A DNA stretch of 26,794 nt from a virus. The stretch spans positions 1 to 26,794 of the IMG/VR virus record IMGVR_UViG_3300003322_000052; one strand, given 5' to 3'. A program made the translations under genes and the position numbers. The notes beneath the pieces were generated by a model. That model did no database searches. It had not been told where the DNA came from and saw only the letters and a list, made by a program, of their open reading frames with translations. Positions 70-6,353 of this stretch are shown one piece after another. Each line of letters begins with the position of its first letter. Within the stretch, counting starts at the first letter, position 1.

Positions 70-342
70 ATGAACCTGAGTTTATTCGAGTTCGAGTTAA
101 AGGAAAACAACGAACCTGTGGACGAAACGCGGATTCAAACAGTGAATCTGCCTTTCTCCCAGGCTGAAAGATCGCGTTTCAACGAATTATGCCGCAAGGG
201 AATGGTAGATTTCTACGGGGCAGACGCTAAGAACAGGAACGCAGTTGACTTTTTACTCGATCTTTTGGAACGTACTTTCGGCTCTCAAACTGACCTATTC
301 GATGAAACCCCTACGGCTAACCCTACGGAAGGCTCTGACTGA
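70..342 (+). CDS. Hypothetical protein, 90 aa, downstream of SSB
   Basis: A 90-residue, mostly hydrophilic, acidic protein (MNLSLFEFELKENNEP...) with no membrane segment and no motif I recognise. The ATG lies 3 nt after the stop of the SSB-like gene. Its last 41 nt overlap the most plausible ATG (302) of the dioxygenase gene, so the three genes look co-transcribed and coupled. The middle (residues 29-70) is predicted helical, with a pattern (ERSRFNELCRKG, AVDFLLDLLERTF) that could form a small helical bundle. No function can be assigned. Confidence 0.7.
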   Translation: MNLSLFEFELKENNEPVDETRIQTVNLPFSQAERSRFNELCRKGMVDFYGADAKNRNAVDFLLDLLERTFGSQTDLFDETPTANPTEGSD

Positions 343-1201
343 CTTTGAAGTTCAGAATCTAACGGCTACTTACATTGACGAAACTCATTTCGATACACTT
401 ATAGAAGACGATTGCGACGTTTATGATACCTCTGGTCGTATGCTGGCCAAGTTTCGGAAAGGCGTATTGCCGATCGAAACTTTAAAAATAGGCGTCGATT
501 CGTTTCGAGGGGCTATAGGCGTCTCCAGGCAGCGCGGCGATTCTGGCGGCGGAACAGTTCTTAACGTGGAACGTAAGGACGGTACAAAATCGAATTGGAA
601 CGCCACTCCGCCGGTAGAATGCGGGTTAGTAGGCGCAATAGAGGGATTTGGAGGGTTGAACCCGTTTTGCAGGCTGACAGCGTTCACAGCGAAGCATTTC
701 GAGCAATATAAAGCAGGTATACCGTTCGTAGAGGCTATCGACGAGCTTTACGCCACACTGGCACCTATACACCACAAAATACAACGAGAGTATGCAAAAG
801 CGACCAACAGAAATTACATCATCGGAAACACCGCGTTTTCCACTGTCACTGTCAATAAGAACTTCCGTACCGCCGTTCATCAAGACGCCGGTGACTTACC
901 GAAAGGATTCGGAAACCTTATCGCCTACCGGGAAGGCCGATGGACAGGGGGATATTTTTGCTTACCGCAGTACCGAGTTGCATTCGATCTACGCAACACC
1001 GACGTGTTGTTCGTAGACGTACACAAGCATCACGCAAATACTCCGTTCTATTTGGACGGTAAGATTATGGACGAATGGCCGGAAGATCAGCTACGAATCA
1101 GCTTCGTATTGTACTACCGGCAGGACATAATCAAATGTGCGAGCCCTTCTAACGAGCTGAAGCGCATGAAAAACACCTATTTTGGATTTAATAAACTGTA
1201 A
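302..1201 (+). CDS. TET/JBP-family 2-oxoglutarate/Fe(II) dioxygenase (DNA pyrimidine hydroxylase)
   Basis: A 299-aa protein from the ATG at 302. A longer reading starts at TTG 245 but lies inside the upstream gene. The core resembles J-binding proteins and phage TET/JBP enzymes: strand TVTVNKNFRT (181-190), the iron-binding HxD motif H193-Q-D195, GFGNL (202-206), PQYRVAFDLR (222-231), the distal histidine region DVHKHH (239-244) and a 2-oxoglutarate-binding arginine candidate R265 in DQLRISFVL. This family uses Fe(II), O2 and 2-oxoglutarate to oxidise the methyl of thymine or 5-methylcytosine in DNA. No DNA methyltransferase is visible nearby, while a kinase and an amino acid:DNA transferase-like gene follow, so thymine to 5-hydroxymethyluracil is the favoured inference. 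It could act on 5mC if a methyltransferase lies elsewhere. Confidence 0.87.
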   Translation: MKPLRLTLRKALTDFEVQNLTATYIDETHFDTLIEDDCDVYDTSGRMLAKFRKGVLPIETLKIGVDSFRGAIGVSRQRGDSGGGTVLNVERKDGTKSNWNATPPVECGLVGAIEGFGGLNPFCRLTAFTAKHFEQYKAGIPFVEAIDELYATLAPIHHKIQREYAKATNRNYIIGNTAFSTVTVNKNFRTAVHQDAGDLPKGFGNLIAYREGRWTGGYFCLPQYRVAFDLRNTDVLFVDVHKHHANTPFYLDGKIMDEWPEDQLRISFVLYYRQDIIKCASPSNELKRMKNTYFGFNKL

Positions 1202-1205
1202 ATGA

Positions 1206-1505
1206 ATGCGTTTAAAACCAAACATAAACCCTCTTCTGAACTTCCCTACCTGGATTTGCTTTCACTTCCTGGGGGAGAAGCATACTCACGCTCACCGAAT
1301 AATAATCGGCGTATTCGTTATGGGATTCGGCGTAGGAATAGCTAAGATTCACACCGAATACATCATTATTCACTTTGTTTACGATATGTGCGGATACCTG
1401 ATTCACGGTATCGGCGCAGTACCTATCATCGAATTTCTAACCCACAAAACCAATGAAAAATCAAAAGAAAAAGAGAAAATACGCGAAACGGAAGAGGTTT
1501 CTTGA
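1206..1505 (+). CDS. Small two-pass membrane protein, 99 aa
   Basis: Starts 4 nt after the dioxygenase stop. Two hydrophobic stretches (about residues 31-47, RIIIGVFVMGFGVGIAK, and 53-78, containing IIIHFVYDMCGYLIHGIGA) are separated by a short loop and followed by a lysine/glutamate-rich tail, so two transmembrane helices with a charged C-terminus are predicted. The tail coding region overlaps the next gene by 53 nt. An ATG at 1202 in another frame would give only a 47-aa peptide and is less convincing. A holin-like role is conceivable, but nothing else points to lysis here. Function unknown. Confidence 0.6.
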   Translation: MRLKPNINPLLNFPTWICFHFLGEKHTHAHRIIIGVFVMGFGVGIAKIHTEYIIIHFVYDMCGYLIHGIGAVPIIEFLTHKTNEKSKEKEKIRETEEVS

Positions 1506-1776
1506 TTTTTACAATACGAGCATGACTTTTCGATCCAGAGGCGACAGTTTTGAAATGCCATATGCAGGGTTATGCACTTTCGTTAATAGAGACATTAGAA
1601 GTATTGGTATATTCAACCGTATGATGCCTACCAGTGAAGATTATAGGAAGCTGGAAGAGGAAGGTTTGGATACAAATTATTGGGCGTCAGGAGACTCCGA
1701 CGCATTGGAATATAAATTCACTGAGCTTCGGCAGAACATTATATTGTTCTGCGCTGCTATGAACGGCGAACTATGA
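1453..1776 (+). CDS. Hypothetical protein, 107 aa, in the DNA-modification operon
   Basis: Begins with a very basic N-terminus (MKNQKKKRKYAKRKRF) that could bind nucleic acid, followed by a mixed, acidic C-terminal half. The start lies inside the end of the upstream membrane-protein gene. The stop overlaps the kinase start as ATGA (1773-1776), which argues for translational coupling with the kinase. No domain is recognised. Its place directly before the kinase suggests an accessory role in the DNA-modification pathway, but that is inference from position only. Confidence 0.65.
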   Translation: MKNQKKKRKYAKRKRFLDFYNTSMTFRSRGDSFEMPYAGLCTFVNRDIRSIGIFNRMMPTSEDYRKLEEEGLDTNYWASGDSDALEYKFTELRQNIILFCAAMNGEL

Positions 1777-2306
1777 TAACTACAGCAATATTGGGTTATC
1801 CAGGCGCCGGTAAGACTTGGAGCGTGTATGAGTTCATTAAGGGTTTGAAACACCTGGGGACGAAGAAAATCGGTCTCGTAGAATACGAGGACTTTGGAAA
1901 CGTAGTAATTATGGGGCGATACGACGGAAGCATTTTTCAGGGTACAGATCGCCTCAGCATGGCTGTATCGGTAGACTTCGACAAGTTTTTCAAGAAGATG
2001 GTAGACGGATTCAGCTCCGCAGACCAATTCACACCAGGGCCGAAATGGATCATAGCAGAGGGTGACAGAATAAACAACTCTACGTTCTTTCACTCAGCTA
2101 TCAAGTACGGAGAACTCGAACGAATAAAATGCGACTGCGAAAGTAATCTGCTTGCAGAGCGCAGGATAAGCCGCGGTCATTCTTTCAAGGCTTCGTTTTT
2201 GAAAACGGTAGCCTCGAAGGTGGATAAGCATGTTTACGACATGATATTAACATCAGATCAACTTTTGATGTATTTAGATCAATTCTACGAGTCCCAAATC
2301 AAATAA
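1773..2306 (+). CDS. P-loop kinase, candidate 5-hydroxymethyl-dU DNA kinase
   Basis: A 177-aa protein with a Walker A motif GYPGAGKT (8-15), an acidic motif WIIAEGDR (92-99) where Walker B or catalytic acidic residues are expected, and a basic segment ERRISRGHSFKASFLK (about 129-144) that could be a lid. In phages with hypermodified thymidine, a P-loop kinase phosphorylates the 5-hydroxymethyl of hmdU in DNA, making the leaving group for amino acid transfer. The characterised kinases carry an extra helical domain. Here the protein is only the kinase domain, and a helical HhH-containing protein is encoded separately at 3775-4524. P-loop nucleotide kinase is secure; the DNA-base substrate is inferred from neighbours. 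Confidence 0.65.
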   Translation: MITTAILGYPGAGKTWSVYEFIKGLKHLGTKKIGLVEYEDFGNVVIMGRYDGSIFQGTDRLSMAVSVDFDKFFKKMVDGFSSADQFTPGPKWIIAEGDRINNSTFFHSAIKYGELERIKCDCESNLLAERRISRGHSFKASFLKTVASKVDKHVYDMILTSDQLLMYLDQFYESQIK

Positions 2307-2307
2307 A

Positions 2308-3072
2308 ATGTATAACATTATAGGAGCCGGGCTCGCGGGCTCTATACTCGCGAAATTCATGAGAATGGCTGATATTCCTTTCAGGTTGTTCGACGCAGGC
2401 TATCCGAACAGTGCCTCAGCGGTAGCGGAGAACCTTGTTTCTGAGAAGTGGGAAAACGGGTTAGAAGGGTTAAGACAGCTTGAAAGGATTGTTCCGATCC
2501 GAGATATAGGGAAGATGAAACACGTATACCGGGAGGACGTGTTAGAAACAAATTATATGAAGGCTGAGGTAGTTCGTCACGTAAATGGTTGCTTTAAACC
2601 GCATACAAATACGTTGTACACTGGTAAAAACATATACTGCACCGGCGTATGGACTAAATTTCTCGTCCCTACTATGGTCGTAGTACCGATACTCGGACAC
2701 GGCCTAAGCCTGGGCGGACAAACAAAAGACGAGTTTATAGAACCGTATAAGCCTTTCCGCGATCTTAAATACATAAACGACACTCGCAATACGCGATGGT
2801 TTAGCAATTCTTTGGCAATTAAGCCTGAGAATTACAACGAATTTCACAAGAACGAACTATTGAGGCTATACAAAGCGGCTAAACAGAGCGAAGGATTCTA
2901 TGAGGGATACACTCTCGAATCGTTCGTAAAAACAGGCCTGCGCCCTAAGCTACTCCCAGGAAAATCACATCATTACGAGCCGGTAATCACTGGCGGATAC
3001 AAGACTGGCTTAATCCAGTACGCAATACGGGCAAATCAGATCGTAGAATTGATAAAAAACAAAAAGCTATGA
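2308..3072 (+). CDS. Short FAD-dependent oxidoreductase/lyase of the modification cluster
   Basis: A 254-aa protein opening with a dinucleotide-binding Rossmann motif IIGAGLAGS (4-12) and an acidic residue D29 ending the second strand (FRLFDAG), typical of FAD binding. The C-terminal GGYKTGLIQYAIRANQIVEL resembles the closing FAD-contact segment of the D-amino-acid-oxidase/glycine-oxidase fold. At 254 aa it is shorter than most members (350-400 aa). Phages with aminoalkylated thymidines encode flavin enzymes that process the amino acid attached to the base, so a similar role on an aminoacylated thymine is inferred. It begins 1 nt after the kinase stop and its end overlaps a small membrane-protein start (ATGA). 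Confidence 0.68.
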   Translation: MYNIIGAGLAGSILAKFMRMADIPFRLFDAGYPNSASAVAENLVSEKWENGLEGLRQLERIVPIRDIGKMKHVYREDVLETNYMKAEVVRHVNGCFKPHTNTLYTGKNIYCTGVWTKFLVPTMVVVPILGHGLSLGGQTKDEFIEPYKPFRDLKYINDTRNTRWFSNSLAIKPENYNEFHKNELLRLYKAAKQSEGFYEGYTLESFVKTGLRPKLLPGKSHHYEPVITGGYKTGLIQYAIRANQIVELIKNKKL

Positions 3073-3176
3073 CAAAACAAGAGTTCAAGCAGGACGTTAT
3101 CATAGTGGTAACGTCTGCGATAGCTGTTCTGGTTATCGCTGGTTCAATCAGGTACGCAATCGAAAATTGGTTATGA
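3069..3176 (+). CDS. 35-aa single-pass membrane peptide
   Basis: An ATG at 3069 overlaps the stop of the FAD gene (ATGA), and its stop TGA at 3174-3176 overlaps the next ATG (3173). The peptide starts MTKQEFKQD and has a hydrophobic stretch IIVVTSAIAVLVIAGSI (residues 11-27) followed by RYAIENWL, so it is predicted as a single transmembrane helix. Exact ATGA overlaps on both sides support a translated gene rather than a spacer. It may also serve to couple translation across the junction. Function unknown. Confidence 0.6.
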   Translation: MTKQEFKQDVIIVVTSAIAVLVIAGSIRYAIENWL

Positions 3177-3778
3177 AAACAAATCACTTCATTTACAAAC
3201 ATGACGGACTATACTATATGCCGTGGGTGCCCGAAATACCAAAACGAGGAAGTAATCAAGGCCTGGGCTTATTTAACATGCTCAACTACGAATCCTCATT
3301 AGCGCAGTATAAAGCAGAACTCGAACGCGCCAAAGCGGAGGCTGTTATATGCGACTCATCTATAGTTAGTCACTTTTTTAATGGGATGTATGACGATAAG
3401 GAGTTTTTAAGCTCGCTGGGCGGCCTCGATCCTAATAAAATCTACACTATCAACATAGAGGAAGAGATTGAGATAATAGAAGAGCCTGAATTTCCAGGAT
3501 TCGATCATACCTCATATCCAATCTTTAAACGAATCGCCCGCATAGCAGCACCTAAAAATGAACGCTATTTCCTATTCAGTTACATTGGAGATAGCGAAGT
3601 AGGAAACATAAAATATCACGGTAACGTATGTTTCGGTTACAACGGATTCCCGTCTAAAAACACTATTAACGATTGTATAAAGCAAGTTAATCCATCTGTA
3701 GACGTGAATACTATAGCGATACAAAATATTTTCGAATTTAAGGATAAAAGCGATTTCGATAATTTTTCAAGATCATGA
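3173..3778 (+). CDS. Unknown 201-aa protein embedded in the DNA-modification operon
   Basis: The ATG at 3173 (ATGA overlap with the upstream peptide) is preferred over a TTG at 3167. The protein is soluble, with a helical charged segment (about 40-60), an acidic run EEEIEIIEEPEFPG (about 96-109) and a C-terminal alpha/beta-looking half (RYFLFSYIGDSEVG, then NVCFGYNGFPS). I recognise no catalytic motif. It is flanked by ATGA overlaps and lies between the FAD enzyme and the amino acid:DNA transferase-like gene, so it is likely translated with them. It could be a further modification enzyme, a specificity subunit or an unrelated passenger. Confidence 0.72.
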   Translation: MKTNHFIYKHDGLYYMPWVPEIPKRGSNQGLGLFNMLNYESSLAQYKAELERAKAEAVICDSSIVSHFFNGMYDDKEFLSSLGGLDPNKIYTINIEEEIEIIEEPEFPGFDHTSYPIFKRIARIAAPKNERYFLFSYIGDSEVGNIKYHGNVCFGYNGFPSKNTINDCIKQVNPSVDVNTIAIQNIFEFKDKSDFDNFSRS

Positions 3779-4524
3779 CGTTCAAAGAATTTTCGCGCGA
3801 ATTGATCTTATCTGGCGATCTCGATCCAGATTATTTAGTAATGCTTCATATAGGCAAAACGATGACTTTCGACGAGATTATGCGATGGATCAAATTGAAG
3901 ATATTTGTTTACGACACTGCCAGTGAATTGAATTTGATGAACGGGGTTAGTTGGGACGAATTGAAGTTTGGCGCTGAACGGGTTAAAAGCAAGGGAAGAT
4001 CGAAAGAATATTTCGATCATTTCGACCAAAATTTCAGGTTATCCGATCTGCCGTTTAAATATGATGAGGCTGCTAAGTATCTAAAGATGTTCCCTGGTAT
4101 AGGCTCCTGGGCGGCTTGGAAGTTTTGCGATCTATTGGAGCGAGTAGCAGGAATAGAAATAGACTTTAGCGATGTCGATTTCCGGATAGCGTACGACTAC
4201 CCGTTGAAGGGGTTATGCCGAGTCAACGGAGAGCCTGATAGCTTCGTACCAAACCTGAAAGATCGATTGACTTACGAAGCGTTTATGCACTCAGCTTTGC
4301 TACAACTCGGAGACGTTAAGAACTTGGAAGCTCCAGGCGGCGGAAGGACTATAAATATACAGGAGGTAGAAACGTGTCTTTGCAAATATCATTCCCATCT
4401 TCAAGGCCGGTATACCCTCGGAAAGGATACTGTACATCTCGCACGACGATTCAAAGAAGAGGGGTTGGAGTTCCCTAAAGGACTATTTTTAGGCAATCCG
4501 CGCACGTTGACGCTGGGGATATAA
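3775..4524 (+). CDS. Amino acid:DNA transferase-like protein (alpha-glutamyl/putrescinyl thymine pyrophosphorylase group)
   Basis: A 249-aa, largely helical protein. FPGIGSW (106-112) is a helix-hairpin-helix element like that of DNA glycosylases. D133/D135 lie in FSDVDFR, and a conserved-looking C-terminal block runs from GGGR (188-191) through QEVETCLCK (196-204) to GKD (216-218). These features match, from memory, the phage family first predicted as alpha-glutamyl/putrescinyl thymine pyrophosphorylases and later linked to amino acid transfer onto 5-phosphomethyl-dU in DNA (the helical domain of hmdU kinases is related). Predicted role: displace phosphate from the modified thymine with an amino acid or amine. 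The gene ends the cluster; its ATG overlaps the upstream stop. Confidence 0.77.
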   Translation: MTFKEFSRELILSGDLDPDYLVMLHIGKTMTFDEIMRWIKLKIFVYDTASELNLMNGVSWDELKFGAERVKSKGRSKEYFDHFDQNFRLSDLPFKYDEAAKYLKMFPGIGSWAAWKFCDLLERVAGIEIDFSDVDFRIAYDYPLKGLCRVNGEPDSFVPNLKDRLTYEAFMHSALLQLGDVKNLEAPGGGRTINIQEVETCLCKYHSHLQGRYTLGKDTVHLARRFKEEGLEFPKGLFLGNPRTLTLGI

Positions 4525-4597: not shown

Positions 4598-4666
4598 ATG
4601 AAATTGGGTTTTAATAGTTACACACCCATCCCCCCTGCGGAGCGATCTGTAGGGGGCCTTTTTTAA
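4598..4666 (+). CDS. Possible 22-aa leader peptide overlapping a terminator
   Basis: ATG at 4598 opens a 22-codon frame (MKLGFNSYTPIPPAERSVGG, then LF) ending in TAA at 4664-4666. It lies just downstream of the promoter-like element, and its 3' half is the terminator hairpin itself, with the stop in the T-run. A ribosome translating it would melt the stem, so it could act as an attenuator leader. It may also be chance, because short frames are common and the start lacks a recognisable signal. Confidence 0.25.
   Translation: MKLGFNSYTPIPPAERSVGGLF
4630..4664 (+). terminator. Rho-independent terminator
   Basis: CCCCCT (4631-4636) pairs with AGGGGG (4651-4656) and is extended by G-T and C-G pairs around the loop GAGCGATC. 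A T6 run follows (4659-4664), with a second T-run at 4672-4679. It would end transcripts from the modification operon or the promoter at 4544. Confidence 0.7.
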
Positions 4667-5894: not shown

Positions 5895-6353
5895 ATGGCA
5901 AAGTCAAGTAAGGATAAAGGCAAATCTAAGGTTGGTAGACCTTCCAAGTACCTCCCCCGGTACGATAAAGAGGTCTACCGCCTGTGCCTTTTAGGTGCAA
6001 CCAACGATCAGATCGCTGATTTCTTCGAGGTCAACGTAGACAGCATTCACCAGTGGAAAAAGGATCATCCGTCATTTTCCGATGCTATAAAAGCAGGAAA
6101 GACACAGGCGGACGCTTTAGTAGGTACGAAGTTGTTCGAGAGAGCCACTGGATACAGTCACAAGGCTGAAAAGGTTTTCTTGGACAGAAACGGCAAGATA
6201 GTAACACACGAATACATCGAACACTACCCTCCAGACCCTACGTCTATGATTTTCTGGTTGAAGAACCGAAATCCTGAAATGTGGAAAGACAAGCAAGAGG
6301 TAGACGTAAACAAGACAATAACGGTGCGAGTGGCAGGCGAAGAGGAGGAGTAG
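5895..6353 (+). CDS. terS: Terminase small subunit (DNA recognition)
   Basis: A 152-aa protein with a basic, flexible N-terminus (KDKGKSKVGRPSKY) and a helix-turn-helix (ATNDQIADFFEVNVDSIHQW, 35-54) followed by KAGKTQADALVGTKLFERATGY and PDPTSMIFWLKNRNPEMW. The last two blocks are typical of phage terminase small subunits, which bind pac/cos DNA and hand it to the large subunit. It is preceded by a short CA-type leader (ACTGCACTC) rather than a Shine-Dalgarno. The large subunit gene is 680 nt away, beyond an RNA-rich spacer and a small gene. Confidence 0.87.
   Translation: MAKSSKDKGKSKVGRPSKYLPRYDKEVYRLCLLGATNDQIADFFEVNVDSIHQWKKDHPSFSDAIKAGKTQADALVGTKLFERATGYSHKAEKVFLDRNGKIVTHEYIEHYPPDPTSMIFWLKNRNPEMWKDKQEVDVNKTITVRVAGEEEE

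Follow-up and report, generated by a model that had tools for sequence, protein, structure and literature searches.

A phage operon for putative TET-primed hypermodification of thymine in DNA

Gene content of the operon and its surroundings

The window, that is, the whole stretch of DNA analyzed here, is a linear virus record of 26.8 kb and likely a fragment. A run of plus-strand genes occupies positions 70–4524, left of the genes for packaging and virion structure. The small and large terminase genes are located at 5895 and 7031, to the right of the operon, and the structural and packaging set in the window also includes portal, protease, capsid, sheath, tape measure, and baseplate genes. The window phage is a contractile-tailed phage infecting bacteria. 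Among cultured phages, its large terminase is nearest to those of a Pseudanabaena phage and Flavobacterium phages, and the cultured TET nearest to the window TET comes from a flavobacterial phage. A Bacteroidota host is plausible because flavobacterial phages are among the nearest cultured relatives of both proteins. A host scan of bacterial genomes gave one weak actinobacterial locus.

All features of the operon are on the plus strand. The run opens with w70 (70–342, 90 aa), a small partner gene that overlaps the start of the gene for a TET/JBP 2-oxoglutarate/Fe(II) dioxygenase (302–1201, ATG at 302, 299 aa) and is an addition to the gene set of the initial annotation. A small hydrophobic ORF of 99 aa, uncertain as a gene (1206–1505), and a 107-aa protein with no assigned function (1453–1776) follow, both without detected relatives. 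The latter is joined by an ATGA overlap to the P-loop kinase gene (1773–2306, 177 aa). Then come the gene for a flavin-dependent lyase homologue (2308–3072, 254 aa), a hydrophobic 35-aa ORF read from the sequence that overlaps both neighboring genes (3069–3176), a 201-aa protein with no assigned function (3173–3778), and the gene for an amino acid:DNA transferase, proposed to be a glycinyltransferase (3775–4524, 249 aa). Searches of Pfam, PHROG, and NCBIfam with the 201-aa protein gave no match, and no relatives were found. A terminator-like hairpin with a T-run (CCCCCT...AGGGGG...TTTTTT) can be read after the operon at 4630–4664. The initial annotation described the four enzyme genes as one run of ATGA-linked genes, but the chain is not unbroken: two small ORFs separate the dioxygenase and the kinase, the kinase and flavin genes are separated by a gap of 1 nt, and the 35-aa ORF and the 201-aa protein stand between the flavin gene and the transferase.

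Family assignments of the four enzymes and w70

The four enzymes had been annotated as a dioxygenase with HxD (H193/D195) and distal His/Arg motifs, a P-loop kinase, a Rossmann FAD enzyme remodeling the adduct, and an amino acid:DNA transferase-like HhH protein. These family calls stand, and the third can be named more sharply as a flavin-dependent lyase.

The dioxygenase matched the Pfam family Tet_JBP (PF12851) over the cut-off (E 1e-21). Its residues H193, D195, H244, and R265 do not vary across 22 relatives, and the HxD and distal His/Arg segments match when the TET family profile is aligned to TET2. The enzyme is proposed to convert thymine to 5-hydroxymethyluracil in DNA. A single-sequence scan with the window TET found nothing in viral contigs, and an alignment-based search was required. 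At a position after the HxD motif, the window TET has D198, whereas other TET clades have Asn. The residues after HxD were rejected as a guide to T versus 5mC specificity, since they did not cleanly split the records with and without a C5-cytosine methyltransferase (C5-MTase).

The w70 profile matched in 82 loci, and in nearly all relatives of the window TET clade the gene lies upstream of TET and overlaps it. The AlphaFold model of w70 (pLDDT 78) has an N-terminal extended segment and helices at residues 31–55 and 58–77. A Foldseek search with this model gave no significant match, and a ribbon-helix-helix assignment was discarded (weak Foldseek support; the top match was an antitoxin with E 0.88). 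w70 is possibly a regulator or a targeting subunit. One related locus (L045:4193-6922) contains a tandem TET pair with a w70 gene and a kinase.

The kinase carries the Walker A motif GYPGAGKT. Alignments of the kinase covered 12 and 39 relatives. The window protein alone had no Pfam match, but 20 of the 39 aligned members matched Ploopntkinase3 (PF18751); the kinase did not match HMUDK_HMUD1 (PF18748). Identity to its relatives is only 22–35%, and G8, G13, K14, G48, G57, D59, E96, G97, and R99 are common to the 39-member family. The AlphaFold model (pLDDT 93.7, pTM 0.88) has a nucleoside-kinase-like fold, and the fold search returned uridine-cytidine kinases and seryl-tRNA kinase (E about 1e-3, TM about 0.5). 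A tblastn search of cultured phages with the window kinase found nothing. From its linkage to TET and the transferase and its predicted fold, we propose that the protein is a 5-hydroxymethyl-pyrimidine DNA kinase.

The flavin enzyme matched the Protein Data Bank (PDB) entries 8z2o/8z79, named “Flavin-dependent lyase” (E 1e-11), phrog_16743, and gp47 of phage PaMx11 (E 6e-13, 97% coverage, about 26% identity). The homology to gp47-like lyases covers the Rossmann part at the N terminus as well as the C-terminal part. Its matches in cultured phages are PaMx11-like flavin genes, and in PaMx11 this gene is located after the transferase. The proposed reaction is the conversion of N-alpha-glycyl-thymine to 5-aminomethyl-dU (5-NmdU). 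The transferase passed the ADDT family (PF18724) by a narrow margin (E 5e-6, 26.8 bits versus a gathering score of 26.2), and matched phrog_6364 (1e-27) and the PDB entries 25qc (ADDT, 6e-16) and 8z2m (“Glycinyltransferase,” 9e-14). It contains an HhH segment and shares the motif NIQEVETxLCK with the solved homologues. A single-sequence scan with it found nothing in viral contigs, and an alignment was needed. To judge from the title of the study, the solved lyase and glycinyltransferase structures appear to belong to work on the thymine-derived products N-alpha-GlyT and 5-NmdU. At the level of homology, the matches of the two enzymes point to glycyl-thymine and then 5-aminomethyl-dU.

Gene linkage and cassette exchange across viruses

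We analyzed 79 loci retrieved with the kinase profile only, 44 of which have at least 4.5 kb upstream. TET was found in 44/44 of these and TET together with an ADDT-superfamily gene in 42/44, and therefore the four-enzyme set is not a chance neighborhood. Kinase and TET are on the same strand in all 76 loci having both. Five other contigs (L099, L100, L104, L106, and L155) contain the same four enzymes, TET, kinase, transferase, and flavin lyase, but their gene orders differ from that of the window. The small unrelated ORFs interspersed in the operon would fit auxiliary genes that lie close by chance and share no pathway, but the co-occurrence in 42 of 44 loci and in the five further contigs makes this extremely improbable. 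A GNAT-like gene precedes the transferase in several related contigs. Microbacterium phage Margaery (L170) has TET and kinase in its complete genome, and no ADDT match was found anywhere in its 56 kb; its end product is possibly a phosphomethyl base, or another transferase may be present.

The window TET belongs to a clade of 25 rows in the TET tree (SH-aLRT 100). In this clade, the slot after w70–TET is occupied by either a TET-associated glycosyltransferase (TAGT) or a kinase, the latter with or without the transferase. Among all loci, 60 have TET and TAGT without the kinase, and only three have TAGT, TET, and kinase together. Two contigs with near-identical TETs (L032:4639-8924 and L027:1-4084) have TAGT in one and kinase in the other in exactly the same slot; identity between the two is 93% through the end of TET and 97% beyond the slot. 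Another pair (L040 and L041) shows 92% identity until the slot begins and the same difference from there on. The TAGT/kinase state has changed at least nine times among 21 rows on the TET tree. As the glycosyltransferase and kinase steps each need a hydroxyl on the base, the simplest reading is that both enzymes use the TET product, and they probably do. The complete genome of Nonlabens phage P12024L (L002) has TET and TAGT without a C5-MTase, and this cultured phage is a candidate for carrying base-J-like glycosylated thymine. In Pelagibacter phage HTVC112P (L003:6973-9195), a ParB-like gene and TET are followed by an FkbM-type methyltransferase, which perhaps methylates the hydroxymethyl group.

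Substrate, proposed pathway, and comparison with known systems

The initial annotation suggested looking for a dUMP hydroxymethylase or a DNA methyltransferase elsewhere in the genome. Neither a ThyA-type hydroxymethylase (PF00303) nor a C5-MTase (PF00145) was found in the 26.8-kb window, a fragment whose genome could encode a methyltransferase elsewhere. PF00303 is also absent from 46 related IMG/VR records and from Gordonia phage CloverMinnie, and it is present in PaMx11 and RHph_I65, both of which pair ADDT with ThyA. PF00145 was detected in only 5/90 related IMG/VR records and was found neither in the complete genomes of CloverMinnie, P12024L, HTVC112P, and Margaery nor in the L155 record (49.9 kb), which has all four enzymes. 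Because ThyA is missing from the 46 records and C5-MTases are rare, thymine is the more probable substrate for the majority of these phages.

A cytosine version of the module seems to exist nevertheless. In Methylophilales phage Melnitz-2 (L166:4010-8090), a C5-MTase adjoins TET, followed by a 427-aa protein and then a kinase of the window's family, two genes on; this arrangement suggests a version with a hydroxymethylcytosine kinase. Within the window's own TET clade, L054 carries TET, transferase, and kinase with a C5-MTase next to them. The phage TETs studied so far are also reported to be active on 5-methylcytosine (Burke et al. 2021, cited in PMC10273834). By this route, a phage or host C5-MTase would make 5mC, TET would oxidize it to 5hmC, and the kinase, transferase, and lyase would build an amino-acid-derived cytosine. 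For the window phage, we consider it unlikely: a C5-MTase is absent in 85 of the 90 related records, in the four complete genomes, and in the window fragment, and the study title appears to tie the solved homologues of the transferase and the lyase to thymine products.

Here, we propose a post-replicative, TET-primed thymine hypermodification pathway. This agrees with the initial annotation and is the best-supported reading, given the linkage of kinase, TET, and transferase, the absence of ThyA from related records, and the rarity of C5-MTases, and we regard it as probable. In the first step, the dioxygenase would oxidize the 5-methyl group of thymine in DNA to give 5-hydroxymethyluracil. The kinase, judged from linkage and fold, would then phosphorylate the hydroxymethyl group to phosphomethyl-U. 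By homology to the solved DNA glycinyltransferase, the ADDT would swap the phosphate for the amine of glycine, giving N-alpha-glycyl-thymine, and the flavin-dependent lyase, like its solved homologue, would cut the glycyl adduct to leave 5-aminomethyl-dU. 5-NmdU is the predicted end product because no acetyltransferase was seen in the operon. PaMx11-type phages use a ThyA-like dUMP hydroxymethylase, for which direct oxidation of DNA would substitute here, and incomplete replacement of T is plausible. The modification would presumably protect against restriction. The 201-aa and 107-aa proteins might alter the product.

On a thymine route, the transferase, the flavin enzyme, or else the 201-aa protein might also lead to a different end product, such as an adduct with an amino acid other than glycine or an amine that is acylated further. 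The ADDT and the lyase are only about 27% and 26% identical to their phage relatives and PaMx11 gp47, respectively, proteins without assigned function lie inside the operon, and GNAT acetyltransferase-like genes stand beside the transferase in related contigs. However, transferase and lyase occur together in PaMx11 and in the five other TET contigs, as expected for a glycine substrate, and a different end product is quite improbable. More broadly, we put forward tentatively that the phage TET/JBP genuinely acts as a thymine dioxygenase on duplex DNA and starts the four-enzyme post-replicative route to 5-aminomethyl-dU without a modified nucleotide pool, possibly guided by w70, in a lineage where gene cassettes for the whole second step (sugar versus phosphate/amino acid) are exchanged. 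If so, phages would have two independent starts for thymine hypermodification, the hmdU nucleotide or the oxidation of thymine in finished DNA, and the lineage would offer a candidate thymine oxidase with interchangeable glycosyl, phosphoryl, and aminoacyl steps as tools.

The phages M6, ViI, and phiW-14 build 5hmdU into their DNA as it replicates; phosphorylation of this base by a DNA kinase then precedes the later modification steps (PMC6449724). PaMx11 resembles the window in its homologous transferase (gp46) and lyase (gp47) and in having a P-loop kinase, and a phosphate-activated hydroxymethyl intermediate is expected in both. PaMx11 differs in its ThyA-like hydroxymethylase, a separate HMUDK_hel protein, and a GNAT acetyltransferase, whereas the window operon has TET and a kinase of a different family but lacks a GNAT; the TET matches from cultured phages did not include PaMx11. 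The five-gene module of actinophages (Gordonia phages CloverMinnie and CaiB and Rhodococcus phage Tonitrus) shares TET/JBP, ADDT/aGPT-Pplase, and kinase with the window, but has a ParB-like gene where the window has w70. It sits at the genome start, with the terminase directly after it in CloverMinnie and CaiB. CaiB, a DR-cluster Gordonia phage, has been described as having ParB, TET/JBP, pyrophosphorylase, and kinase genes, with 4-bp overlaps (PMC9302106), and a TET-containing thymine hypermodification system has been described in Tonitrus (PMC11955845). The CloverMinnie TET scores below the Pfam cut-off, and its fifth gene, for a Rossmann protein, resembles the flavin lyase at first sight, but homology could not be demonstrated (hhalign probability 4%, no relevant PDB match).

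P12024L, whose TET is among the nearest relatives of the window TET, has the same upstream w70 gene, but cassettes of this type have a glycosyltransferase instead of the kinase and transferase, and a base-J-like sugar adduct is the expected product. The oxidation of thymine in DNA by the TET/JBP enzymes JBP1 and JBP2 is the first step of base J synthesis in kinetoplastids. There, the later step is glucosylation, without a kinase or an amino acid transferase, both of which the window has; oxidation in finished DNA, if true for the phage, would parallel base J of trypanosomes. Pathways starting from TET/JBP-made hydroxymethylpyrimidines were reportedly predicted by Iyer et al. in 2013, and we know of no phage TET with demonstrated action on thymine, so this old prediction is now directly testable in cultured phages. 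Since the TET-primed idea was predicted then and similar gene sets have been annotated in actinophages, the window operon is no new class; beyond the known systems, it brings in a flavin lyase, a further TET clade, and evidence of cassette swapping.
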